NCBI GenBank assembly: GCA_019163175.1
Contig: JAFLKN010000003.1
Location: 1-64,000, forward strand
Length of the DNA: 64,000 bases
Source of the DNA: Prolixibacteraceae bacterium
Lineage (GTDB): Bacteria > Bacteroidota > Bacteroidia > Bacteroidales > Prolixibacteraceae
Reading direction: 5' to 3'
Shown in pieces: positions 28,947-41,037 of this stretch (position 1 is its first letter; each line of letters begins with the position of its first letter). The notes below the pieces were generated by a model. It saw only the letters and a program-made list of their open reading frames with translations, was not told where the DNA came from and ran no database searches. The position numbers and the translations under genes are program-made.

Positions 28947-29552
28947 TTATTTGTGTCGTTTTTTCAATTCCCGTGCTAAATCTTCAATGCGGTAACCTTT
29001 GTGCGAAAGCAAAACAATGAGGTGATACAGCAAATCTGCACCTTCATAAATGAAGTTCTCATCATCATCGGCCATCGCTCCAATAATAGTTTCAACAGCT
29101 TCCTCTCCCACTTTCTGGGCAATTTTGCGCGTCCCCTTCTGGAACAAAGAAGTAGTGTACGAACCTTCCGGCATTTCCTGCTTACGTTGGTCAATAAAAT
29201 CCTGAAGATATTCGATGAATTGAATGTCGCTTTCTTCGTTTGTTTCGCCCCAACAAGTGTCGTCGCCGGTATGACAAACCGAACCGACAGGATTCACTTT
29301 AATCAGCAAAGTATCGTTATCGCAATCGGCCGCAATCGAAACCACATTCAGAAAGTTTCCTGATTCTTCTCCCTTGGTCCAAAGTCTGTTTTTGGTGCGG
29401 CTAAAAAAGGTAACCTGACCGGTTTCTTCAGTTTTGGCAACTGCTTCTTCGTTCATAAAACCCAACATCAGCACAACGTTGGTTGTATTATCCTGAATAA
29501 TTGCCGGTATCAAACCGTTCAGTTTGGTGAAATCTAATTCTGTATTTTCCAT
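28947..29552 (-). CDS. hisIE: Bifunctional phosphoribosyl-AMP cyclohydrolase / phosphoribosyl-ATP pyrophosphatase
   Basis: Catalyses the second and third steps of histidine synthesis. The N-terminal HisI domain (about 1-105) has the zinc/magnesium motifs ADCDNDTLL and GSVCHTGDDTCW. The C-terminal HisE domain (about 110-201) has the helical MazG-like pattern KVGEEAVETIIGA and GADLLYHLIVLL. Length 201 is normal for the fusion. It is the last gene of the his operon. A gene-less inverted repeat fills the 61-base gap after hisF. Confidence 0.96.
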   Translation of the reverse strand: MENTELDFTKLNGLIPAIIQDNTTNVVLMLGFMNEEAVAKTEETGQVTFFSRTKNRLWTKGEESGNFLNVVSIAADCDNDTLLIKVNPVGSVCHTGDDTCWGETNEESDIQFIEYLQDFIDQRKQEMPEGSYTTSLFQKGTRKIAQKVGEEAVETIIGAMADDDENFIYEGADLLYHLIVLLSHKGYRIEDLARELKKRHK

Positions 29553-29571
29553 CGTATTTTATCTTATTTTT

Positions 29572-29611
29572 CTTCGTTGTCTTTGCTGTCAAAGCGCAAA
29601 GATGCACAAAG
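29572..29611. repeat. Short inverted repeat with TCTTTGC units between hisF and hisIE
   Basis: Imperfect palindrome: the left arm contains CTTCGTTGTCTTTGC, and the right arm read on minus gives CTTTGTGCATCTTTGCGC. The arms share the CTTTG-rich style of the element at 35387-35473. It fills most of the hisF-hisIE gap. Confidence 0.5.
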
Positions 29612-29613
29612 TT

Positions 29614-30366
29614 TTATCGTATGACAATTCCTTTACTTTTCAAATAGCTCTTCAAATCGGGTATGGCAATTTCTTTGTAATGAAAGATACTGGCAGCCAA
29701 TCCTGCATCAGCCTTTCCTTCAGTAAACACATCCACAAAATGTTCCATGTTGCCTGCACCTCCAGAAGCAATGATCGGAATCCGCAGCATATCCGACATT
29801 TTTGCCAGTTCCTTGTTGGCAAAACCAGCCTTGGTTCCATCATGATTCATCGAGGTAAACAAGATTTCGCCTGCGCCACGACTTTCACCTTCTTTTGCCC
29901 ACGAGAACAGTTCTTTTTCGGTCGGAATACGGCCGCCATTCACGGTTACAGTCCAGTAATCGTTTTCGCCGCGGGCATCAATGGCCAACACCACAAACTG
30001 GCTACCGAAGTTCAGCGCCAGATCGTCAATCAGCTTCGGGTTGCGCACAGCCGAGGAGTTGATGCTGATTTTATCGGCACCAGCACTAAGTAAAGCATCC
30101 GCATCTTTCAGTTCGCTAATTCCGCCACCAACGGTGAACGGGATATTGATCTCGCGGGCAATGCGTTTCACCAATTCAACAAAGGTTTTTCGACCTTCGT
30201 GCGTGGCAGTGATATCGAGGAAAACCAGTTCGTCAGCTCCCTGTTCGGCATACAGCGCACCCAGTTCAACCGGGTCGCCAACGCTTTTAATATTCACAAA
30301 GTTGATGCCTTTCACGGTCTGACCGTCTTTAATATCAAGGCATGGTATGATTCGTTTTGCTAACAT
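29614..30366 (-). CDS. hisF: Imidazole glycerol phosphate synthase, cyclase subunit
   Basis: Uses ammonia from HisH to convert PRFAR into IGP and AICAR. The 250-residue TIM barrel begins [20 protein letters not shown] with the catalytic Asp (CLD). It has phosphate-binding loops TVGGGI and ASGGAG, and the second catalytic Asp in AIDARGEN. It is separated from hisA by a four-helix-bundle element and from hisIE by a small inverted repeat. Confidence 0.97.
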
Positions 30367-30385
30367 TTCCTTAGTTTATTGGTTT

Positions 30386-30405
30386 AACAGGCAGAAGGCA
30401 GAAGT
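30386..30405. repeat. Left inverted repeat of four-helix-bundle element 1
   Basis: A 20-base arm made of a GGCAGAA repeat (AACAGGCAGAAGGCAGAAGT). It pairs with the arm at 30837-30856 at 19 of 20 positions. Together they enclose a 471-base segment holding only the four-helix-bundle gene. Confidence 0.75.
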
Positions 30406-30453
30406 ACTTGTCGGATTAATTTTCATTTTCTTTATTGATTACTTCAGCCAATT

Positions 30454-30807
30454 CTACTTTTTAATCTTAGATATCAGACTAGAAAGCATTTTTTCAATTT
30501 CTATGCTGAGTAAATTAATCTCAATATATTTTTCCTCACTCAAATAACCCAATTGGAAACTAATTTCCAGTTGAGTTTGAAACTCATACAATGAGCCCGA
30601 AGCAATTTGAAGAAATCTGATATAATCACCAGAACTATTTCGCCCATATCCTTCGGCAATATTGCTTGGAATTGAAATCGCACTTCTTCTAATTTGGGAA
30701 GTCAAACCATAAATTTCTTCTTTAGGCCATGATTTCGTTTCGGCATAAAGATTAAGCACAAGTGACATTGCCTTTTGCCAAACGATCAAATCCCGATATG
30801 TTTGCAT
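30454..30807 (-). CDS. Four-helix-bundle protein (23S rRNA intervening-sequence/S23 family), copy 1
   Basis: The 117-residue protein begins MQTYRDLIVWQKAMSLVLNLYAETKSWP and contains PKEEIYGLTSQIRRSAISIPSNIAEG, the signature of the family first seen inside 23S rRNA intervening sequences. The fold is a four-helix bundle. Molecular function is unknown. It lies between hisF and hisA in the operon direction and is enclosed by a 20-base inverted repeat, which points to insertion of a cassette. A related copy lies at 31634-32008; the two differ widely in sequence, so they are not a recent duplication. Confidence 0.88.
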   Translation of the reverse strand: MQTYRDLIVWQKAMSLVLNLYAETKSWPKEEIYGLTSQIRRSAISIPSNIAEGYGRNSSGDYIRFLQIASGSLYEFQTQLEISFQLGYLSEEKYIEINLLSIEIEKMLSSLISKIKK

Positions 30808-30836
30808 ATTCTTGAATTTTGTGTTTTCAATTTTTC

Positions 30837-30856
30837 ACTTCTGCCTACTGCCTGTT
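30837..30856. repeat. Right inverted repeat of four-helix-bundle element 1
   Basis: Reverse complement of 30386-30405 with one mismatch. It abuts the hisA stop codon (30857-30859), and a further unit (CTTCTGCCTTCT, 30861-30872) encodes the last residues of HisA (EGRS). Confidence 0.75.
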
Positions 30857-31591
30857 TCAACTTCTGCCTTCTAGTATAAATCTACTTATCTCATCCAAAC
30901 TAATCCGATTCTCATAAATCGCTTTTCCGGTAATTACTCCCGGAATGCCCATTTCGTTGAGTTCATGTATGTCTTTCATTGAAGCGATTCCTCCGCTAGC
31001 AATGAGTTCCAGTCTGGGGAAGCGCTCCATGATTTCTTTGTACAAATCGATGCTTGGGCCGGTTAACATTCCATCGCGGGCAATGTCGGTTGAAATAACC
31101 TGCCGAATGCCTTTGCTGGTGTAGCTTTCAATGAAATCCAGGATAGATAATTCTGAAACTTCCTGCCAGCCGCTAACGGCAATCATTTTGTCTTTGGCAT
31201 CGGCACCAAGAATGATTTTTTCAGCACCGTAGGTTTCAATCCAATGTAGAAAAGTTTCGCGGTCTTTTACTGCAATACTTCCACCGGTAACCATTTGTGC
31301 ACCACATTCAAACGCAATGCGTAAATCTTCATCCGCCTTCAATCCACCACCAAAATCAATCACCAAACTGGTCTTCGAGGCAATCGTTTCCAGAACTTTA
31401 TAGTTGACAATATGCTTTGCTTTAGCGCCATCCAAATCGACCAGATGCAATCGGGTGATACCGGCATCTTCAAACATTTTGGCCACTTCGAGCGGATTCT
31501 CGTTATAAACCGTTTTCTGGTTGTAATCGCCTTGTGACAAGCGCACGCATTTGGCGTCGATTAGGTCAATGGCTGGTATAATTGTGATCAT
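30857..31591 (-). CDS. hisA: Phosphoribosylformimino-AICAR-P isomerase
   Basis: Amadori isomerisation of ProFAR to PRFAR. The 244-residue TIM barrel begins [22 protein letters not shown] with catalytic Asp in AIDL. It has phosphate loops FGGGLK and ASGGIAS, and the second catalytic Asp in STDIARDGM. The final residues (EGRS) are encoded by the same GGCAGAAG repeat unit that borders the neighbouring element. Four-helix-bundle elements flank the gene on both sides. Confidence 0.97.
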
Positions 31592-31592
31592 A

Positions 31593-31627
31593 TTTGATAA
31601 ACGATTAAAGATTATGGATTGAAGATT
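31593..31627. repeat. Left inverted repeat of four-helix-bundle element 2
   Basis: A 35-base arm built from GATTAAnGATTA-like units. It matches the reverse complement of 32022-32056 at 27 of 35 positions. The enclosed element is about 464 bases, close to the 471 bases of element 1. Confidence 0.65.
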
Positions 31628-31633
31628 AACGAT

Positions 31634-32008
31634 TTATTTAGGAGGCAAAGTACCTTGTTTTCGCTTACTTGTTTCAATACTTTTGACAAAGATTGAGACA
31701 AGTTCATTGCATTCCGTTTTTAACTGATTTAGCAGTTGCTGGTCTGCATGAAGTTTTGCACCATCAATAATCCTAAGATTTATAAAAGTTTCGCGCATTT
31801 CCTTCAGACAAATACGGAGTTTATGAACAAAATCTTTAGGGGATTCAGCACTTTGAGCTTCGCCATAATTTAACGCAGTAGATGAACTAGACCGAACAAT
31901 CTGCCCTGAAAGGTTATTGCCAGCAATGCTTGGTTTAATTCCATCAGACAATCGAATAATATTCACAGCAAAAGAAATAAGTCGATCTTCTAATTCACGT
32001 GGTGTCAT
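31634..32008 (-). CDS. Four-helix-bundle protein (23S rRNA intervening-sequence/S23 family), copy 2
   Basis: The 124-residue protein begins MTPRELEDRLISFAVNIIRLSDGI and has LSGQIVRSSSSTALNYGEAQSAES, the family's central helix pattern, then a KLRICLKEMRETFINLRII helix. Function is unknown. It lies between hisA and hisH and is enclosed by an imperfect inverted repeat of a different sequence from that of copy 1. It belongs to a divergent branch of the same family, so the two insertions were probably independent. Confidence 0.82.
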   Translation of the reverse strand: MTPRELEDRLISFAVNIIRLSDGIKPSIAGNNLSGQIVRSSSSTALNYGEAQSAESPKDFVHKLRICLKEMRETFINLRIIDGAKLHADQQLLNQLKTECNELVSIFVKSIETSKRKQGTLPPK

Positions 32009-32021
32009 AGTTTAAATCTAA

Positions 32022-32056
32022 AATCGTTGATCGTTAATCTCTAATCGTTAATCAAT
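32022..32056. repeat. Right inverted repeat of four-helix-bundle element 2
   Basis: Built of ATCGTTAATC units, the reverse complement of the left arm at 31593-31627. It ends one base before the hisH stop codon (32058-32060). Confidence 0.65.
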
Positions 32057-32057
32057 T

Positions 32058-32657
32058 TTACAACTTCAAAAAGTTCTCAAGTATCTTGGCGCCAACCGTT
32101 CCGCTCTTTTCAGGATGAAACTGGGTAGCGTAAAAATTGTCGCGGTGCAAAGCAGCACTAAATGGATTGATGTAATTGCAAACAGCTGCAGTGTCTTTAC
32201 CAACTGCAGCATAATACGAATGCACAAAATAGACAAACTGATTATCGAGTGACGGATCGAAAATGCCACTTCTCAAGTCTGTGATGTTGTTCCATCCCAT
32301 ATGAGGCACCTTGGTCACGAACTCCATTCCCTGTTCAGGAATAAATCGTTTCACTTGTTCATCGAAAATTCCCAAACAAGGCGTATCGTTTTCTTCGGAA
32401 TAGCTGCACATGAGTTGTAATCCAAGGCAAATTCCCAATACTGGTTGTTTCAATTGCGGAATAAGTTGATCCAGACCTTCTTTTTTCAGGTAGGCCATCG
32501 TGGTACTGGCCTCTCCCACTCCCGGAAAAATCACTTTATTAGCAGCTTTAATTTTTTCGTGATCGCCTGTAATTTCAGCGTTTACGCCAAGCCGGAGCAA
32601 GGCATTATTCACCGATTCGATGTTTCCAGCGTTATATTTGATAATGACGATGCTCAT
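32058..32657 (-). CDS. hisH: Imidazole glycerol phosphate synthase, glutaminase subunit
   Basis: Class I glutamine amidotransferase that feeds ammonia to HisF. The 199-residue protein has the oxyanion motif FPGVGEAS, the nucleophile Cys in GICLGLQLM, and the His/Glu pair in TQFHPEKSG. It starts 82 bases beyond the tRNA gene on the other strand. No clear promoter was found in that gap, so it may rely on read-through from tlpA. Confidence 0.97.
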   Translation of the reverse strand: MSIVIIKYNAGNIESVNNALLRLGVNAEITGDHEKIKAANKVIFPGVGEASTTMAYLKKEGLDQLIPQLKQPVLGICLGLQLMCSYSEENDTPCLGIFDEQVKRFIPEQGMEFVTKVPHMGWNNITDLRSGIFDPSLDNQFVYFVHSYYAAVGKDTAAVCNYINPFSAALHRDNFYATQFHPEKSGTVGAKILENFLKL

Positions 32658-32738
32658 GTTTATTTTCTATATTTTTCTGATCAATTCAATGACAATGAAT
32701 GCTTTGTTGTTGTACCTTTATATAGATAATTCATGTCC

Positions 32739-32810
32739 GGCGCGTTCTTCTAACGGTTAGGAAACCGGTTTCTCAATCCGGAGATGGCAGTTCGATTCTG
32801 CTACGCGCTA
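32739..32810 (+). tRNA. tRNA-Glu, anticodon CTC
   Basis: A 72-base cloverleaf: acceptor GGCGCGT paired with ACGCGCT (G-U first pair), D arm TTC/GAA, anticodon stem CCGG/CCGG with a T-T mismatch next to the loop, loop TTCTCAA giving CTC, T arm GGCAG/CTGCT with loop TTCGATT, and discriminator A. CCA is not encoded. It lies on the strand opposite the his operon, 3 bases from the tlpA stop codon. Confidence 0.8.
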
Positions 32811-32813
32811 CAA

Positions 32814-33353
32814 CTACTTTTTCATCAAATCCGCAATCACCGATTTCATTTCAGCGAATTCTTCTTCCTTGTAAAGTCGAGTCATATAAACAATCTTCCC
32901 GGTTTTATCGATAATAACATTGCGGGTAACTCCTGCTCCCTTTTCAGCAAACTGATAAAATATACCGCCTTGGGGATCAAGCGCTAACGGATAAGTGACC
33001 GGAATCAGTTTGGCAAACTCTTTTACCTTTTCAACTGGCTCGTCCAGATCAATTCCGTAGAGAGCAAAACTTGGATTGCTTTGGTATTTTTTCCATATAT
33101 CAGCTTCGATATGCGGCATTTCTTTCCGGCAAACCGAGCACCAACTGGCAGTAAACTGCAACATCACAATTTTTCCTTTCAAATCAGCCATGCGAACAGT
33201 TTTGCCATCTGCAGTGGTCATCGAAAAATCGGGAACTTGCTGGCCAATTTTTACAATATATCCATAATCAGCCGGAATTTCTTTGGCCGGTGTTTGTGCA
33301 AACACTCCATTAATACTTATTCCTATCATTAGAATTATAATAATTTTTCTCAT
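32814..33353 (-). CDS. TlpA-family thiol-disulfide oxidoreductase
   Basis: The 179-residue protein has a signal peptide (1-20, cleaved after VFAQ) and a thioredoxin fold with active site WCSVC (Cys72, Cys75). It also has the TlpA-type opening VGQQVPDFSMTTADGK-like segment and a cis-Pro region in GAGVTRNVIIDKTGKIV. It is likely periplasmic. It follows purU by 10 bases inside the his cluster, with no evident link to histidine synthesis. Confidence 0.87.
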   Translation of the reverse strand: MRKIIIILMIGISINGVFAQTPAKEIPADYGYIVKIGQQVPDFSMTTADGKTVRMADLKGKIVMLQFTASWCSVCRKEMPHIEADIWKKYQSNPSFALYGIDLDEPVEKVKEFAKLIPVTYPLALDPQGGIFYQFAEKGAGVTRNVIIDKTGKIVYMTRLYKEEEFAEMKSVIADLMKK

Positions 33354-33363
33354 AGTGTATTGA

Positions 33364-34236
33364 TTAACTAAAAACTACAGTACGATTGTTGTAAACCAAA
33401 ATTTTTCGCTCAATATGCTTATCAACTGCTTTTGATAAAACGATCTTTTCCAAATCTCTACCTTTGGCAATGAGGTCGTTTACCGTGTCTTTGTGACTAA
33501 CATGTGCTACTTCCTGCTTGATAATTGGCCCGGCATCGAGCTCTGTTGTAACGTAATGGCTGGTTGCCCCAATGATTTTTACCCCGCGCTCATATGCAGC
33601 ATGATAAGGTTTTGCCCCCACGAATGCGGGCAAAAATGAGTGATGTATATTGATGATCTTGTGCGGATAATGCGTTATGAAATCGTCACTGATAATTTGC
33701 ATATATCGCGCTAACACAATAAAATCAATTTTGTGTTTTTCCATCAACGCAATTTCCTGGGCTTCCTGCTCTTCCTTATTGTCTTTATTCACCGGAAAAA
33801 CATGGTATTCAATATCAAACCGGCGAGCCACATCTGCCATGTCAGGATGATTGCTGATGATAACAGGGATTTCAACGTTCCATTCTCCGGAGGTATAACG
33901 CGCTAACAGGTCAAACAAACAATGTGACATCTTCGAGACAAAAATGGCCATGCGAGGTTTTTCTTCCGAGAAATGGATTTCAAAGGTCATTTGATTTTTC
34001 TGCCCAATGAGGGTCGCAAAATAGTCAGCTATTTTATCCTTCGGGATGTTGAAATTGCTCAGATCCCATTCAACGCGCATGTAAAACAGCTTTTCTTCGC
34101 GATCGACATGCTGATCTAGATAGAGAATATTTCCGTTATTGGTATTAATAAACTCGGTTACCAATGCCAGAAGCCCTTGCTTGTCAGGGCAATGGATCAA
34201 GAGAATAGCGGTTGATTTACTTTGGTCAATAGTCAT
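33364..34236 (-). CDS. purU: Formyltetrahydrofolate deformylase
   Basis: Hydrolyses 10-formyl-THF to formate and THF. The 290-residue protein has an N-terminal ACT domain (about 1-85, ILLIHCPDKQGLLALVTEFI) and a C-terminal formyltransferase-type domain with the catalytic Asn-His-Asp set in INIHHSFLPAF and GATSHYVTTELDAGPII. It lies 21 bases after hisB in the his operon. Histidine synthesis releases AICAR, which needs 10-formyl-THF to return to purines, so a one-carbon link to the pathway is plausible but inferred. Confidence 0.94.
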   Translation of the reverse strand: MTIDQSKSTAILLIHCPDKQGLLALVTEFINTNNGNILYLDQHVDREEKLFYMRVEWDLSNFNIPKDKIADYFATLIGQKNQMTFEIHFSEEKPRMAIFVSKMSHCLFDLLARYTSGEWNVEIPVIISNHPDMADVARRFDIEYHVFPVNKDNKEEQEAQEIALMEKHKIDFIVLARYMQIISDDFITHYPHKIINIHHSFLPAFVGAKPYHAAYERGVKIIGATSHYVTTELDAGPIIKQEVAHVSHKDTVNDLIAKGRDLEKIVLSKAVDKHIERKILVYNNRTVVFS

Positions 34237-34257
34237 ATTGGTAGTTTTTCAGTAGAA

Positions 34258-35379
34258 TTATAGAGTTCCTTTGGTTGTTGGCAATTCAAAATTAAAAACA
34301 TCCTTTCGAATTGCCATTTTAATTGCCCTGGCCAATGCTTTAAAAATGCCTTCAATTTTATGGTGTTCGTTCGTTCCTTCCGCCTGAATGTTAAGGTTTG
34401 AGAGCGAAGTATCGGAGAACGACTTAAAAAAATGAAAGAACATTTCGGTAGGCATATCACCTACTTTTTCGCGTAGGAAATCAGCTTTCCAAACAATCCA
34501 CGGCCGGCCACCGAAATCGATAGCCACCTGAGCCAGACAATCGTCCATTGGCAAACAATAGCCATAACGTTCAACGCCCCGTTTGTCGCCCAAAGCAAGT
34601 TTGAAAGCCTCGCCCAGAGCAAGCCCGGTATCTTCAATGGTGTGATGTTCGTCAACATTTAGGTCACCGTCTACCTGAATATTCAAATCAACTCCGGAAT
34701 GTCGGGCAATCTGATCGAGCATGTGATCAAAAAATCCCAATCCCGTACTAATATTTCCTTTACCAGTTCCATCCAGATTCAGCTCAACCCTGATTTTGGT
34801 TTCCTTAGTGTTGCGCGAAACCACAGCGGTGCGATCAGGAGAAGCTACTTTTGCATAAATTTCGTCCCAGTCATTGGTAATCAAGGCACAAAATTCGGCC
34901 AATCCCTTTTCCTGAAGTTCGTTTACCAACGAGCCATCGTTAATCAGGATGCCTTTTGCCCCCAGATTTTTAGCTAGTTGAACATCTGTCAGCCGGTCGC
35001 CAATAACAAAGCTATTGGCTAAATCGTAACTTCCATCCAGGTATTTACCCAACATCCCGATGCCAGGCTTACGGTTTGGCGAATTGTCGTGCGGGAAATG
35101 CCGGTCGATAAATATTTCATCAAAAATAACTCCTTCTTTTTCAAAGGCATTGAGGACTTTGTTGTGAACCGGCCAAAATGTTTCCTCAGGAAATCTGTCA
35201 GTACCCAAACCATCCTGATTGGTAACCATCGTCAATTCGTACGAAAGATTTTTAGCAATGAAATGCATATTGCGGAATACTTTGGGCAAATACTCCAATT
35301 TTTCGAGCGAATCAATTTGCTCATCTTCCGTTTCAAAAATCAATGTTCCGTCGCGATCAATAAATAGTACTTTTTTCAT
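34258..35379 (-). CDS. hisB: Bifunctional histidinol-phosphatase / imidazoleglycerol-phosphate dehydratase
   Basis: The 373-residue fusion has an N-terminal HAD phosphatase (DRDGTL at 8-13, both catalytic Asp) and a C-terminal dehydratase (from about 180) with the metal motifs [10 protein letters not shown] and NEHHKIEG. In the phosphatase loop where E. coli HisB has Cys zinc ligands, this protein reads [10 protein letters not shown] without Cys. The frame is open to 35451, but those 24 residues come from a CTTTGCG repeat; ATG 35379 gives the family start [13 protein letters not shown]. Confidence 0.95.
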
Positions 35380-35386
35380 GATGTTT

Positions 35387-35473
35387 CTTTGCGTGACTTT
35401 GCGCTCTTCTTTGCGGTCTTTGCGGTAAGATATTACCTCAAAGAACATCAAGGATTTTCACAAAGGACACTAA
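35387..35473. repeat. Gene-less inverted repeat with CTTTGCG units between hisC and hisB
   Basis: Four CTTTGCG-type units in the left arm face CTTTGAGG, CCTTGATG and CCTTTGTG units in the right arm on the opposite strand. The centre is GGTAAGATATTACC (35424-35437). It occupies the whole 96-base gap and resembles the flanks of the four-helix-bundle elements without the gene. Confidence 0.55.
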
Positions 35474-35475
35474 GT

Positions 35476-36507
35476 TTAAACAAGTTTCTTCAACACTTTT
35501 CTCAATTTCTTATTTTCTTTAGGCGAACCAATAGTAATCCGCAAACAATCATCACAAAGGGTAACTTTGGAGCGATCGCGAACAATAATTTTTTGCTCGG
35601 TCAAATACGCATAGATACCTCTTGCATCATTCATCTTTACCAAAATGAAGTTGGCATCCGAAGGATAAACCACCTGCACAAATGGCAATTTGAATAACTT
35701 TTTCACCATTTTACCGCGCTCTTCAAGAATCGCGTTCACCCATTCTTCTTTCTCCTGAATCTTATCCATCAGCTTCAATGCTTTCTTCTGTGTCAGAATA
35801 TTGATGTTGTATGGATACTTTACCTTGTTGAAAATCCGGATAATTTCCGGCTGTGCAAAAGCCATCCCCAATCGAATGCCGGCCATTCCCCATGCTTTTG
35901 AGAACGTATGCAAAACAATCAAGTTCTTGTATTGATCCAAGTCGGGTAGTAAACTACTCTCAGGCGAAAAATCAATGTATGCCTCATCAACAACAACCAA
36001 ACCATCAAAATCAGTAATTAATTTAATGATTTCGGCTTTATCTAACAGGTTGGCTGTCGGATTGTTGGGCGAACACACAAAGATAACTTTTGTATAAAGA
36101 TTCGTTGCATCCAGTAATTTCTGTGCCGAAAATCCAAAATCTTCATTCAATTTCACCTTGCGAACCTCTACATTATTGATGTCGGCAGCCACCTGATACA
36201 TGCCGTAAGTTGGGTCGATTGAAACCATGTTATCGACTCCAGGCTCGCAAAAAGCACGAAAAATAATGTCGATTGGCTCATCACTACCATTTCCAAGGAA
36301 AATTTTTTCAGGAGCAACGTTCTTTATAGCTGCAATCTTTTCTTTCACAGCCCACTGAAGCGGATCCGGATAGCGATTGTATGGCTTATTGAACGGGTTT
36401 TCGTTGGCATCCAAATACACATCAGCCTCGCCTGAGAACTCGTCACGAGCAGATGAATAAGGTTTCAATGCCTTTATGTTGTTGCGAAGTAATTTGTCAA
36501 GTTCCAT
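35476..36507 (-). CDS. hisC: Histidinol-phosphate aminotransferase
   Basis: PLP enzyme that transaminates imidazole-acetol phosphate with glutamate. The 343-residue protein has [15 protein letters not shown] near the start, the Asn/Asp/Tyr cofactor set in [10 protein letters not shown] and [10 protein letters not shown], and the Schiff-base Lys in [15 protein letters not shown]. It begins 5 bases after the hisD stop, so the pair is tightly coupled. Confidence 0.97.
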
Positions 36508-36512
36508 ATTTC

Positions 36513-37811
36513 TTATATGTTATTTCTTATTTCTTTTAATCGAAGCGTCACGGCATTTTTATGGGCATCCAAAAGTTCGGCTGCTGCCATTGTTTCAATA
36601 ACAGGTCCGAGATTTTTCATGCCTTCCGGAGATATTTCCTGAAAAGTAATTTTTTTAATGAAACTATCAATATTCACTCCGCTAAAAGAACGGGACCAGC
36701 CATTGGTGGGCAAAGTATGATTAGTCCCCGATGCATAATCGCCAGCACTCTCAGGAGTATAATTTCCGAGAAAAACGGATCCCGCATTGGTTATCAATTC
36801 GGCCACTTGAAGATAGTTTTCCATGGCAATAATCAAATGTTCAGGCGCATATCCATTAATCAGGTCAATCATTTCCTGAACATTTTCCAGCACAACGGCC
36901 TGACTGTTTGCCAAAGCTTTTTCAGCAATAGCTTTGCGTGGCAAATCAATAAGCTGCCGGGCCAATTCCTGATCAACTTTATCAACCAATGATTTGTCGT
37001 TCGTTACCAACACAACCTGACTGTCGGGTCCGTGTTCTGCCTGAGAAAGCAGATCGGCAGCAATAAAAGCTGGAATGGCAGTTGAATCAGCCATTACAGC
37101 TACTTCAGACGGACCTGCTGGCATATCTATAGCAACATCTCCGCGACTAACGATCTGTTTGGCTGCCATCACATACTGGTTTCCGGGGCCAAAGATTTTA
37201 TCCACTTTCGGAACAACATCAACACCGTAAGCCATTGCTCCAATCGCCTGAATACCGCCGAGTTTAAATATCTTCGTCACTCCAACCAACTTCGCCGCGA
37301 ACAGAATCACCGGATGTATTTTGCCTTCTTTATTTGGTGGCGTACACAACACAATTTCTTTACAACCTGCAATGTTAGCCGGAATAGCCAACATCAGAAC
37401 CGTTGAAAATAACGGAGCCGAACCTCCCGGAACATACAATCCAACTTTCTCGATGGCCACCGGTTTTTGCCAGCAGATTACACCTGGAGTTGTTTCTATT
37501 TTTTTAATTGCCGGAACCTGCGATTCGTGAAATTTTTGAATGTTGTGAGCGGCAACCTGTATGGCATTTTTTAGTGAATCGTCGACTAAAGAAATGGCCT
37601 CTGCAATTTCCTGCTCCTGAACGGCAAAATCCTGAATAAAAGCGCCATCAAATTTTTCGGTGTATTTCCTAATCGCATTAACGCCACCTTTTTTTATTTC
37701 AGCAAGGATTGCCTGTACCTGAGCTTCGAGCTCGGCCACACTAAAAAGTGGACGCTGCAACAACTCTGCCCATGTTTCTTTTGGGGGAATATTATATGTC
37801 TTCATACTCAT
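36513..37811 (-). CDS. hisD: Histidinol dehydrogenase
   Basis: Zinc enzyme that oxidises histidinol to histidine in two NAD-dependent steps. The 432-residue protein has [16 protein letters not shown], the signature from about 230 ([14 protein letters not shown]), [10 protein letters not shown] with the catalytic Glu-His, and [15 protein letters not shown]. The ATG at 37811 overlaps the eamA stop by four bases (ATGA); a second ATG two codons later (37805) is an alternative. Confidence 0.97.
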
Positions 37812-38698
37812 TGAGTTTTCAATGGTTTAAGTTTCAGTGCTAAAAAATTACCTGCAAAAAGTAAAAGAATACCGATTGCTGCAGCCAGACCCCATTGGTA
37901 ATTTTCAAAAAATGAGGAAATTATCAATGCAATAACCGGTGCAATCAAAGTTGTATATCCGGCACGATCAGGACCAATATCGCCAACAAGTTTCAAATAT
38001 AAAGTAAAGGCAACAATTGAGCCCAATATTGAAAGGTATAGAAGTGAAGCGATGTATGGAAATGTGGCTTCGAATGAAAAGCTTCTTCCCGAAAGTGGCA
38101 CCATTAACATCATTGATAAACTTCCGTAAGTCATACTAAAAGCATTAGTCTGAATTACAGGTAGTTTTCGATTCTGATTGTATTTAGAAAGGATATTTCC
38201 TAATGATGCCAAAACGATGGATCCGAAACAAAAAAGTATAGCCTGATACCCTATAGCTATTTGTTCCGAACTCTGCAATTCATGGCTAAAAATAAGAAGT
38301 GTTCCTCCAATCCCGAGCACGGCTCCGCCCATAACTTCTTTTCTGATCTTTCCTTTCAGCAGTAAATAATTAAAAAAGATATTGGTGAAAATTGAAAATG
38401 AAAAGATAATAGCAACTACTCCACTAGCTAAATTTTCTTCGGCCAGATAGACCAGCCAGTAATTAAACCCAAACAAAATCATTCCCTGAAGCACCATCAA
38501 AAGGTGCTCACGAAGAGTGTATCTTAAGTTCAGCTTCCGTATAGCACTGAAAGCAATTAACAACAAACCCGCTATCAGGAAACGATACATTACCGAGACC
38601 AATGGATCGACCTGCCCCAACTGAAATTTGATGGCAAACCAGGTTGAACCCCAGATTAGACATGGAAGAATGAAATATAAAATTTGTTTGAGTTTCAT
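37808..38698 (-). CDS. EamA/DMT-family transporter
   Basis: Inner-membrane protein of 296 residues with ten predicted helices in two EamA repeats, starting LKQILYFILPCLIWGSTWFAIKF. The family exports or imports small metabolites, often amino acids. It sits between hisG and hisD, 8 bases from hisG and overlapping hisD by four bases, so it is firmly part of the his transcript. Export of histidine or an intermediate is a reasonable guess from position only. Confidence 0.88.
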   Translation of the reverse strand: MKLKQILYFILPCLIWGSTWFAIKFQLGQVDPLVSVMYRFLIAGLLLIAFSAIRKLNLRYTLREHLLMVLQGMILFGFNYWLVYLAEENLASGVVAIIFSFSIFTNIFFNYLLLKGKIRKEVMGGAVLGIGGTLLIFSHELQSSEQIAIGYQAILFCFGSIVLASLGNILSKYNQNRKLPVIQTNAFSMTYGSLSMMLMVPLSGRSFSFEATFPYIASLLYLSILGSIVAFTLYLKLVGDIGPDRAGYTTLIAPVIALIISSFFENYQWGLAAAIGILLLFAGNFLALKLKPLKTQ

Positions 38699-38706
38699 TT
38701 GAGGTA

Positions 38707-39567
38707 TTAAAAAATCATTTTTTCGATTGGAATCACCAGAATTCCAGTAGCGCCGGCAGCTTTCAATTTGCCGATTATTTCCCAGAAGTCTTTTTCTTCA
38801 ATCACTGAGTGAACCGAACTCCAGCCTTCTTCTGCCAAAGGCATCACTGTTGGGCTTTTCATTCCCGGCAGGTACGATTCTATTTCAGCCAGCTTTTCGT
38901 TGGGAGCATTCAGTAAAATATACTTTTTCTTTTCGGCGCGCTGCACCGATTCCATCCTGAAAATCAGTTCTTCCAAAATTGCCTTCTTAACTTCCGAAAG
39001 ATTAGGATTGGCAATCAAAACAGCTTCAGATTTTACAACCACTTCAACCTCTTTCAATCGATTACTCACCAAAGTACTCCCTGAACTGACAATATCAAAA
39101 ATGGCATCGGCCAATCCAATTCCGGGAGCAATTTCAACAGAACCAGTGATTACATGAATTTCGGCAGAAATATTTTTTTCAGCAAAGAAGCCTTTCAGTA
39201 TTTCTGGATAAGAGGTCGCAATTTTCTTTCCATTGAAATATTCAACTCCATTGTAAAAATCGTCCTTTGGAATAGCTAAAGAAAGTCTGCATTTGCTGAA
39301 TCCGAGGCGTTTGGCAATAACCACGTCTTCCTTCTTTTCGAGCATTTCGTTTTCGCCAACAATTCCTATGTCTGCCACTCCCATCGCAACTGCCTGAGGG
39401 ATATCATCATCGCGCAGGAAAAGAGCTTCGAGCGGAAAATTTGTAGCTGTCGAAATCAATTTTCTTGTACTTAGGGGGAGTTTGATTCCGGCTTCATCAA
39501 TCAGTTTTAACGAATCTTCGTTCAATCTGCCCTTCGTTTGAACGGCAATTTTTAAAAGTCCTTCCAT
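38707..39567 (-). CDS. hisG: ATP phosphoribosyltransferase, long form
   Basis: First and committed step of histidine synthesis. The 286-residue protein is the long, HisZ-independent form: two catalytic domains (KIAVQTKGRLNEDSLKLI at the start, then DIVSSGSTLVSNRL for PRPP binding) and a C-terminal ACT-like regulatory domain (about 212-286, LPGMKSPTVMPLAEEGW) that binds histidine for feedback inhibition. It is the first full gene of the operon, 18 bases after the attenuator hairpin. Confidence 0.96.
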   Translation of the reverse strand: MEGLLKIAVQTKGRLNEDSLKLIDEAGIKLPLSTRKLISTATNFPLEALFLRDDDIPQAVAMGVADIGIVGENEMLEKKEDVVIAKRLGFSKCRLSLAIPKDDFYNGVEYFNGKKIATSYPEILKGFFAEKNISAEIHVITGSVEIAPGIGLADAIFDIVSSGSTLVSNRLKEVEVVVKSEAVLIANPNLSEVKKAILEELIFRMESVQRAEKKKYILLNAPNEKLAEIESYLPGMKSPTVMPLAEEGWSSVHSVIEEKDFWEIIGKLKAAGATGILVIPIEKMIF

Positions 39568-39584
39568 TTCAATTTCTATTTAAA

Positions 39585-39615
39585 GCAAAAAAGGCCTACC
39601 ATCTTGGTAAGCCTT
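39585..39615 (-). terminator. Attenuator terminator of the his operon
   Basis: Minus strand: AAGGCTTACC, loop AAGAT, GGTAGGCCTT (10 pairs, one G-U), then a run of T. It lies between the leader peptide and hisG. Its first arm can instead pair with GGTAGGC at the end of the leader frame (39659-39665). Confidence 0.88.
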
Positions 39616-39653
39616 CTTATTGGGTTAATATCTTTTAAAAAACATCAAAACAA

Positions 39654-39716
39654 TTACTGCCTACCGGTTGATAGATTCAAATGATGATGGCCGTAATGTG
39701 TAATTGTGTTGTTCAT
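39654..39716 (-). CDS. hisL: Histidine operon leader peptide
   Basis: A 20-codon frame beginning at the ATG at 39714-39716 and ending in TAA. It reads MNNTIT-HYGHHH-LNLSTGRQ, with four His in six codons (39681-39698). Scarce charged tRNA-His would stall a ribosome there. The frame's 5' part (39700-39707) can pair with the stop-codon region (39650-39657, 8 perfect pairs). GGTAGGC (39659-39665) can pair with the first arm of the terminator. These mutually exclusive pairings are the classic attenuation arrangement. The frame is too short for routine gene callers. Confidence 0.88.
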   Translation of the reverse strand: MNNTITHYGHHHLNLSTGRQ

Positions 39717-39734
39717 TTTCTTATTTATAAAGTG

Positions 39735-39765
39735 CAATTATAGTTATAAAATGAAATCAAAACAA
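39735..39765 (-). promoter_or_regulatory. Promoter of the his operon
   Basis: Minus strand: TTG (39763-39765), a 20-base spacer, then TATAATTG (39735-39742), one mismatch from TAnnTTTG. RNA would start near 39728, about 12 bases before the leader peptide ATG. Confidence 0.55.
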
Positions 39766-39890
39766 CTTATCTGATTACAGTTTTTAGAATTTTACGTTTT
39801 ATTAATATAAAATTCAGCTTACTCATGAGCTTTGTCATTAGAACAACTACAATAAATTCTTCCTCTATTTAATAATTTAAAAGGAATGTG

Positions 39891-39898
39891 TATGTTTG
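39891..39898 (+). promoter_or_regulatory. -7 element before the GH88/105 gene
   Basis: TATGTTTG matches TAnnTTTG. It lies within an upstream extension of the frame (ATG 39886) and so supports the start at 39937. No spaced -33 TTG was seen. Confidence 0.4.
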
Positions 39899-39936
39899 TA
39901 CAATCGATTGCAAACCTAAACTTAAATCAATTAAAT

Positions 39937-41037
39937 ATGAAAAAAACCATTTCATTTCTTCTCGTTTTCATGCTTATCGGCATGACCGTTTTTTCAAAAA
40001 GTAAGTTAGACAAATGTTTCAAGCCGAAAGAAATTAAAAAGGCAATGACAACTGCAGCAATGTGGCAGTTAGCCAATCCGAAACACAATTTGTATGATTG
40101 GACTAATGGAGCATTTTATGCAGGAATATCTGCAGCTTACAAAACTACCGGCGACAAAAAATTACTGACTGCCATGATTGAAATGGGGGATAAAAACGAA
40201 TGGAAGCCCGGTCCCCGATTGGAACACGCCGATGATCATGCCATTTGCCAAACTTACATTGATGTTTACCGCATCAAAAAAGATCAGAAAATGATCGATC
40301 CGTTCAAAGCACAAATGGATAAATTTCTGGCAACACCATACCAACCAAAAGGAATTCAGAAAATTACATGGTGGTGGTGCGATGCATTATTTATGGCTCC
40401 ACCGGCATTGGTAAAATTATCGATGACTACCGGAGACAAAAAATACATGGAAAGAAGTGACGTATTGTTTCACGAGTGTTACGATATGCTTTACGACAAA
40501 GAAGAGCATCTTTTTGCCCGTGACTTAATGTACGTAATTAAAGGCGATGCTTCAGATCGTCGCGAAGCTAATGGGAAAAAGATTTTCTGGGCGAGAGGAA
40601 ATGGCTGGGTAATGGGTGGCTTGACTTTGCTATTGAGCGAACTTCCTAAAGATTACAAAGAGCGCCCACTCTATGAAAAAGTATATAAAGAAATGGCAGA
40701 GAAAATTGTTAGTCTTCAGCAGGAAGATGGACTATGGAGAGCAAGTTTACTCGATCCGGCATCTTATCCAGGTGGAGAAGCTAGTGGTTCAGGATTTTAC
40801 ACCTATGCTTTGGCTTGGGGCATAAACAATGGATTACTAAGTGCTGACAAGTATCTTCCAGCAGTTAAAAAGGCATGGAAAGGATTGAATACATTAATTC
40901 AACCTGATGGACATGTAGGCTGGTGTCAACCGATTGGAGCCGACCCAAAGAAAAACTTTAATGCTGAAAGCTGGGAGGTTTATGGTACCGGAGCATTTCT
41001 ACTGGCTGGAAGTGAGATAATCAAACTGAAAAAATAG
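39937..41037 (+). CDS. Glycoside hydrolase family 88/105 (unsaturated uronyl hydrolase-like)
   Basis: The 366-residue protein has a signal peptide (about 1-20, MKKTISFLLVFMLIGMTVFS) and an alpha6/alpha6-barrel with the GH88/105 landmarks: HADDHAICQTY, WWWCDALFMAPPAL (catalytic Asp), FWARGNGWVMGGL and DGLWRASLLDPASYPGGEASGSGF. These enzymes remove unsaturated uronic acids left by polysaccharide lyases, for example from rhamnogalacturonan. No lyase, SusC/D pair or regulator lies nearby, so it is an isolated gene. The longer frame from ATG 39886 would hide the signal peptide. Confidence 0.87.
   Translation: MKKTISFLLVFMLIGMTVFSKSKLDKCFKPKEIKKAMTTAAMWQLANPKHNLYDWTNGAFYAGISAAYKTTGDKKLLTAMIEMGDKNEWKPGPRLEHADDHAICQTYIDVYRIKKDQKMIDPFKAQMDKFLATPYQPKGIQKITWWWCDALFMAPPALVKLSMTTGDKKYMERSDVLFHECYDMLYDKEEHLFARDLMYVIKGDASDRREANGKKIFWARGNGWVMGGLTLLLSELPKDYKERPLYEKVYKEMAEKIVSLQQEDGLWRASLLDPASYPGGEASGSGFYTYALAWGINNGLLSADKYLPAVKKAWKGLNTLIQPDGHVGWCQPIGADPKKNFNAESWEVYGTGAFLLAGSEIIKLKK

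Follow-up and report, generated by a model that had tools for sequence, protein, structure and literature searches.

The enterobacterial his attenuator joins a His-codon leader to mutually exclusive hairpins, arranged in a multi-hairpin layout, and to an intrinsic terminator before hisG. A survey from 2010 states in its available text that, before its own work, no attenuators were known outside Proteobacteria and Actinobacteria (PMC2965389), and the corresponding text of an Rfam-based survey proposes that amino-acid attenuators may stem from gammaproteobacteria, with very few transfers (PMC3766115). In the Firmicutes, his attenuators are described for the Bacillus cereus group, Peptostreptococcaceae and Erysipelotrichales, in 17 genomes (PMC9413887). 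Within the Bacteroidota, a 2021 transcriptome study of Flavobacterium psychrophilum reports a structured element 5' of hisG that also occurs in other genera of Flavobacteriaceae and has no Rfam matches; because its authors suspect leader-peptide attenuation upstream of amino-acid operons, the attenuation idea is partly in print (PMC9723704). Leader-peptide-like short frames have also been described in Bacteroides, in a report whose available text does not contain the words "histidine" and "his operon" (PMC7366714). Apart from PMC9723704, no paper among the literature matches listed, with subscription papers mostly outside the scope, dealt with a his leader peptide in Bacteroidota.

The leader locus and its relation to described attenuators

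The window, by which we mean the whole stretch of 64,000 nucleotides analyzed here, derives from a Prolixibacteraceae bacterium. On its minus strand, hisG is preceded, within positions 39585-39765, by a site resembling a promoter, by a leader of 20 codons and by an intrinsic terminator (39615-39587). The features, in the direction of transcription, are:

39763..39765, minus: TTG, -33-like promoter element (from the sequence), separated by N20 from TATAATTG
39735..39742, minus: TATAATTG, -7-like promoter element (from the sequence and its recurrence upstream of leaders)
ATG 39716 to TAA 39654, minus: leader peptide frame MNNTITHYGHHHLNLSTGRQ plus stop, 20 codons, His at codons 7, 10, 11 and 12
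39689..39697, minus: strand 1 (ATTACGGCC), protector, partner of 39653-39661 (family pairing and swap test)
39653..39665, minus: strand 2 (GGTAGGCAGTAAT), spanning the leader end and stop codon, partner of strand 1 or strand 3
39619..39654, minus: linker hairpin extending the antiterminator (fold of the window only)
39606..39612, minus: strand 3 (GCTTACC), partner of strand 2 (39659-39665) in the antiterminator, or of strand 4
39591..39615, minus: terminator hairpin, strands 3 and 4, 10 pairs (family pairing and covariation)
39615-39606 / 39600-39591, minus: terminator arms AAGGCTTACC / GGTAGGCCTT, 10 pairs, one of them G-U
39587..39592, minus: six-T run (from the sequence), its first two T shared with the hairpin
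38707..39567, minus: hisG, first gene 3' of the element (PF01634, 1.1e-51; PF08029, 1.3e-29)
within 28947..38698, minus: first part of the downstream genes: EamA transporter, hisD, hisC-like aminotransferase, hisB, formyl transferase
within 28947..38698, minus: remaining downstream genes: AhpC/TSA-redoxin protein, hisH-like, hisA, hisF, hisIE, two 23S_rRNA_IVP genes

An earlier sequence-only reading had proposed the promoter TTG-N20-TATAATTG upstream of the leader, the 20-codon frame with four His in six codons, the 10-pair hairpin with its U run before hisG, and an alternative pairing of GGTAGGC with GCTTACC; all of these are present as described. The alternative pairing, the antiterminator, has 7 pairs, one of them G-U (39665-39659 with 39612-39606). 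The terminator hairpin was recovered by folding the stretch, and it ends about 20 nt upstream of the hisG ATG, leaving the ATG outside, with the T run on its 3' side. A consensus scan of the window, the promoter pattern of which is that of sigma-70, listed neither the leader terminator nor the leader promoter.

With the Rfam family His_leader (RF00514) the element shares the His-codon leader, the mutually exclusive hairpins and the intrinsic terminator before hisG, taking the enterobacterial side as it is generally known, but it has fewer His codons and a three-helix switch in place of the enterobacterial multi-hairpin layout. The description "enterobacterial-style" therefore holds for the mechanism and not for the layout, a 1:2 / 2:3 / 3:4 switch that His_leader does not match. 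A covariance-model search with the Rfam family, which the earlier reading had recommended, listed nothing for 39500-39900 at E values up to 10 (cut-off 49 bits) and, at the cut-off and with stricter filters, found it in none of 118 phylum genomes including the window's own; E. coli reaches the cut-off. Five matches below the cut-off, in four phylum genomes, all lie away from hisG. Bacteroid-trp (RF01692), likewise a Bacteroidota leader RNA, with Trp codons and trp genes there as against His codons and hisG here, gave a weak match (28.8 bits versus a cut-off of 49) that ends in AAGGCTT of strand 3. All relaxed-threshold Rfam matches, headed by STnc370, Bacteroid-trp and Phe_leader, fell below their cut-offs and were judged to be terminator resemblance.

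The Firmicutes his attenuators are similar by their description, having a short leader with 3-5 His codons and a terminator plus antiterminator and standing outside RF00514 (PMC9413887). The F. psychrophilum element has phylum, gene and the absence of an Rfam match in common with ours, whereas its description, in the available text, gives no leader sequence or pairing (PMC9723704); in our sample, the Flavobacteriaceae-like family discussed below is without a canonical terminator. What we describe is a predicted case of a known mechanism in an uncatalogued lineage, apparently extending phylum-wide. As His-rich leaders precede hisG in 58 families, with Rfam matches absent where tested, these data suggest that the view of a gammaproteobacterial origin reflects the models used. 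The leaders also provide a ready covariance model and a concrete, predicted switch for sensing histidine in a major bacterial group of the gut and the environment.

The gene cluster downstream has features of its own. The EamA transporter gene (37808-38698) separates hisG from hisD, with which it shares 4 bases, and occupies this position in 10 of 34 named loci; the transporter is a possible candidate for an amino-acid exporter under histidine control. The two 23S_rRNA_IVP genes (PF05635; 30454-30807 and 31634-32008) are situated one between the two PF00977 genes, hisA and hisF, and the other between the hisH-like gene and hisA. On the opposite strand, a tRNA-Glu (CTC) gene (32739-32811) splits the his gene cluster into two halves.

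Conservation and covariation of the leader across the phylum

Matches to hisG were obtained in 51 of 61 close relatives (E 0.001; the G027 match is only 30% identical and that of G008 partial) and, at E 1e-40, in 56 genomes from the order (118 searched) and 101 from the phylum (198 searched), to which 35 named contigs were added. The stretches upstream of hisG, up to 440 nt each, comprised 204 distinct sequences of what we take to be the same phylum, Bacteroidota. A frame of 7-45 codons was scored as His-rich if it had at least 3 (looser) or at least 4 (stricter) His in 8 codons. The search for such frames before hisG in Bacteroidota, proposed in the earlier reading, recovered them in 180 of the 204 stretches at the looser level and in 158, from 58 families, at the stricter one; the families are our own grouping, with the unassigned L059 counted as one. 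Dinucleotide shuffles yield 8.4 and 0.0 such stretches, respectively, and the reverse strand 10 and 2. Among other residues on the same strand, Leu reaches 135 at three in eight, compared with 36 (followed by Ile with 28) at four in eight, so the 3-His count is unconvincing by itself and the 4-His count convincing; some of the 180 frames are probably chance frames. The remaining 24 stretches, including those of the gut MAGs L057, L058 and L060-L062, have no His-rich frame, and three loci (L242, G033:C1:3443577-3444000; L097; L099) have two in tandem upstream of hisG. Within the window, 2 of 1790 short frames (7-45 codons, both strands) reach the stricter level; the second, at 40356-40448 on the minus strand, has four consecutive His (MYFLSPVVIDNFTNAGGAINNASHHHHVIF), lies within the oppositely oriented gene 39886-41037 and is probably a chance occurrence.

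The promoter recurs as well: TAnnNTTG is found within 45 nt 5' of the leader start in 128 of the 180 leaders, against 12.4 expected from shuffles, and a TTG 17-22 nt 5' of this box in 110 (a raw count). In the window's family, 37 of 39 leaders have a -7-like box.

The three helices were scored in an alignment of these 39 family leaders, cell by cell. The terminator (3:4) is paired in 99.7% of 390 cells, with two-sided changes in 5 pairs (12 cells), a result reached in none of 500 shuffles. The antiterminator (2:3) is paired in all 273 cells and varies little, the one two-sided change being in L030; its covariation score of 0.074 is slightly exceeded when the strands are slid (0.082 at +3). For the protector (1:2), 39689-39697 with 39653-39661, 92.3% of 312 cells are paired, compared with 5-57% in slid positions, and two-sided changes affect 4 of 8 pairs (4 cells), compared with up to 3 pairs and 8 cells in slid versions (8 at +1). 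Since the slid versions of 1:2 and 2:3 match or exceed the two-sided-change or covariation values, the case for these two helices within the family rests on the pairing being kept and not on covariation. By inspection of the alignment, the protector has one G-A mismatch in the window at a position where other genera mostly have G-C or G-U. The earlier reading had placed the protector between the early leader and the stop-codon region, where ACAATTAC (39707-39700) is indeed the exact complement of GTAATTGT (39657-39650), but this pairing is poorly kept, at 66.0% of 312 cells (37-53% when slid).

Folding the window from leader start to strand 2 (-11.3 kcal/mol) yields 39693-39697 paired with 39653-39657, plus neighboring pairs. 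Both from the leader start to strand 2 and over the full alignment, RNAalifold favored a small local hairpin instead of 1:2, so the claim for 1:2 rests on the family pairing and the swap test described below. From strand 2 to strand 3 the window folds at -16.1 kcal/mol, the linker hairpin extending the antiterminator; in the family this hairpin is paired in 74.7% of 478 cells, with covariation no better than in slid controls, and we therefore regard it as a feature of the window. Once strand 4 is included, the minimum-energy fold is the terminator and the antiterminator is absent, so that the latter must form first, during transcription.

Across the phylum, 143 of the 180 leaders have, 3' of the last His codon and 5' of hisG, a terminator-like hairpin with an energy of at most -6 kcal/mol, and at the criteria used the other 37 have none. 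The strand test covered 141 loci from 58 families with a hairpin of -9 or better, 2:3 being defined as the region after the last His codon paired with the first terminator arm. One locus was drawn per family in each of three draws, giving 9000 swaps of strands between loci; an earlier version without composition correction gave z -4.1 for one control, and shuffles were subtracted in the final test. For 2:3, own strands pair 4.17 kcal/mol better than shuffled ones and swapped strands 1.12 (z -9.0, 0 of 9000 swaps); for 1:2 the values are 2.61 and 0.57 (z -6.7, 0 of 9000). Neither the strand-1 region (z -1.3, 1038 of 9000) nor the upstream region (z 0.3, 5542 of 9000) is special in its pairing with strand 3 among the 58 families. 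A further control, in which the 45 nt upstream of the frame were paired with strand 2, gave a deviation as well (z -3.3, 4 of 9000), which leaves the 1:2 signal less clean than that of 2:3; in some families part of strand 1 may begin upstream of the frame, a partial account of this deviation. Taken singly, 57 of the 141 loci (on average 14 of 58 families) have a 2:3 energy that ranks in the top 5% when compared with the regions of other families; at the same level, 98 of 141 exceed shuffled versions of their own region. The motif GGCTTACC is common to many families, and the helices change as wholes with complementarity kept, as in GGTAGGC/GCTTACC (the window's family), CTCAAGCG/CGTTTGAG (f119) and GCGCCGG/CCGGCGC (f130). 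Lack of conservation of His codons or hairpins in relatives, named beforehand as the outcome that would speak against the idea, is thus not what we find: relatives keep the leader, its His codons, the terminator and the antiterminator, and these covary.

The geometry of the leader is also regular. Counted from the first base of the last His codon, strand 2 begins after a median of 17 nt; a ribosome stalled at one of the earlier His codons would therefore leave it free. At 136 of 141 loci strand 2 overlaps a footprint that extends from -15 to +12 nt relative to the stop codon. Where the reading frame at the leader end differs (L003, L030), the letters of strand 2 stay or change jointly with those of strand 3, L003 retaining GGTAGGC; in L121, strand 2 follows directly after the stop codon. 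We read this pattern as indicating that selection would act on the RNA and not on the GRQ end of the peptide.

Proposed mechanism and alternative readings

The element is, very probably, a ribosome-mediated transcription attenuator of the his operon. Its leader frame is rich in codons of the operon's own amino acid; an intrinsic terminator, seen in sequence, fold and covariation, lies between leader and first gene; the antiterminator is, by pairing and position, exclusive with the terminator and has one strand that a ribosome at the stop codon could mask; and a protector pairing, weaker than 2:3 and with one control not clean, would free the terminator when translation is absent. The stalling, termination and histidine response that follow are predicted from these conserved and covarying parts. 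Transcription would start about 10-15 nt 5' of the leader frame, judging from the -7 box. When His-tRNA is scarce, the ribosome would stall at codons 7-12 and cover strand 1 (39689-39697), so that free strand 2 (39659-39665) could capture strand 3 (39606-39612) before strand 4 exists; the terminator would then not form and hisG would be transcribed. With ample His-tRNA, a ribosome at the stop codon (39656-39654) would cover strand 2, allowing the 3:4 terminator to form and transcription to stop before hisG. In the absence of translation, strand 1 would pair with strand 2, and the terminator would again result.

The alternative hairpins might instead hide or free the hisG start, so that the leader would control translation rather than termination, as in some known amino-acid attenuators that mask the ribosome-binding site (PMC9413887); the family f137, where a canonical terminator is absent at all 25 loci, would fit such a scheme. 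The position of the window's hairpin, with its T run and the excluded ATG, and the prevalence of terminator-like hairpins among the leaders argue against this reading, which we consider improbable. A constitutive terminator accompanied by a His-rich micropeptide would require no switch; His clusters can bind metals, and the HYGHHH motif is well kept in the alignment of the window's family. Outside that family, however, the His clustering persists while the remaining residues vary, and strands 2 and 3 covary in the 58-family comparison. Moreover, a covariance model built from the 39-leader family alignment and searched in 61 relatives gave 34 matches at E <1e-8, all of them before hisG, most being in the model by construction. 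We accordingly hold a metal-binding or similar micropeptide to be very improbable. Gram-positive his genes are controlled by T-boxes and the HisR repressor (PMC9413887), which could point to a histidyl T-box or a riboswitch sensing tRNA or histidine directly, but this deserves hardly any credence: no T-box or riboswitch reached the Rfam cut-offs (gathering score for the T-box) in the window or in the 16 his-leader loci sampled, and the leader frame itself is conserved.

Transcription attenuation, the reading we prefer for the window, may have been modified in f137 (25 loci between L191 and L223), a family that is probably Flavobacteriaceae. Its leaders average 9.6 His, RNAalifold finds no structure in them, and the tract from stop codon to hisG has a C content of 0.23 and a G content of 0.09. 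Given this C-rich, G-poor tract and the missing canonical terminator, control would probably be Rho-dependent or translational. A -7 box is present at 15 of the 25 loci and in 14 of these ends 4-5 nt before GTG or ATG, which suggests that the leader-peptide message would be leaderless. His leaders with no terminator detected also occur at L174-L178 (family f116) and L126-L128; by eye, several of the L174-L178 leaders have last His codons that could fold into a short hairpin close to the stop codon or overlapping it.

Trp and Cys leaders

Besides its strong matches, the family model produced weaker ones, and the surroundings of ten of these and of one strong tandem match were examined. Eight, including one from the genome that contains the window (L234, G000:C2:304490-304616), lie upstream of trpE-like genes that have Trp-codon leaders. 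In G027, a Trp-containing leader before a trpE-like gene has a second Trp leader behind it, and in G033 the match corresponds to a leader with Cys codons upstream of a cysteine synthase-like gene (PF00291). Sampling the best 30 loci from 52 genomes with a match (L245-L274), 29 of which have upstream DNA, we found Cys-rich leaders before the cysteine synthase-like gene at 22 of these 29 family loci; seven Cys leaders inspected together with their downstream DNA have, by eye, a GC-rich hairpin and a T run. The Cys-codon leader is a candidate cysteine attenuator, and polycysteine leaders are known from mycobacteria. Trp-containing leaders precede trpE at 22 of 27 loci of the order, some chance frames included.

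Taken jointly, these leaders raise the possibility, which we hold to be somewhat less likely than not, that attenuation is the default for several Bacteroidota amino-acid operons (His phylum-wide, Trp, and Cys before cysteine synthase) and not a gammaproteobacterial speciality, f137 having a derived his version.

Some individual loci may be recorded here. When 20 leader sources (16 his, 3 trp, 1 cys) were checked against Rfam, a single match reached its cut-off, Acido-Lenti-1 in L234, 3' of the Trp leader; Bacteroid-trp had no match at cut-off in L234, L237 or L238. Trp-codon leaders (IWWW) before trpE are found in the window's genome and in the order (L234, L276-L301), two of them standing in tandem in L238. 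The window's genome also has a Cys-codon leader, MKANFSYMYMCCCFKQSGEGMFSIHG plus stop, with a hairpin and T run (L267; G000:C7, upstream of 97973-98881, minus strand).
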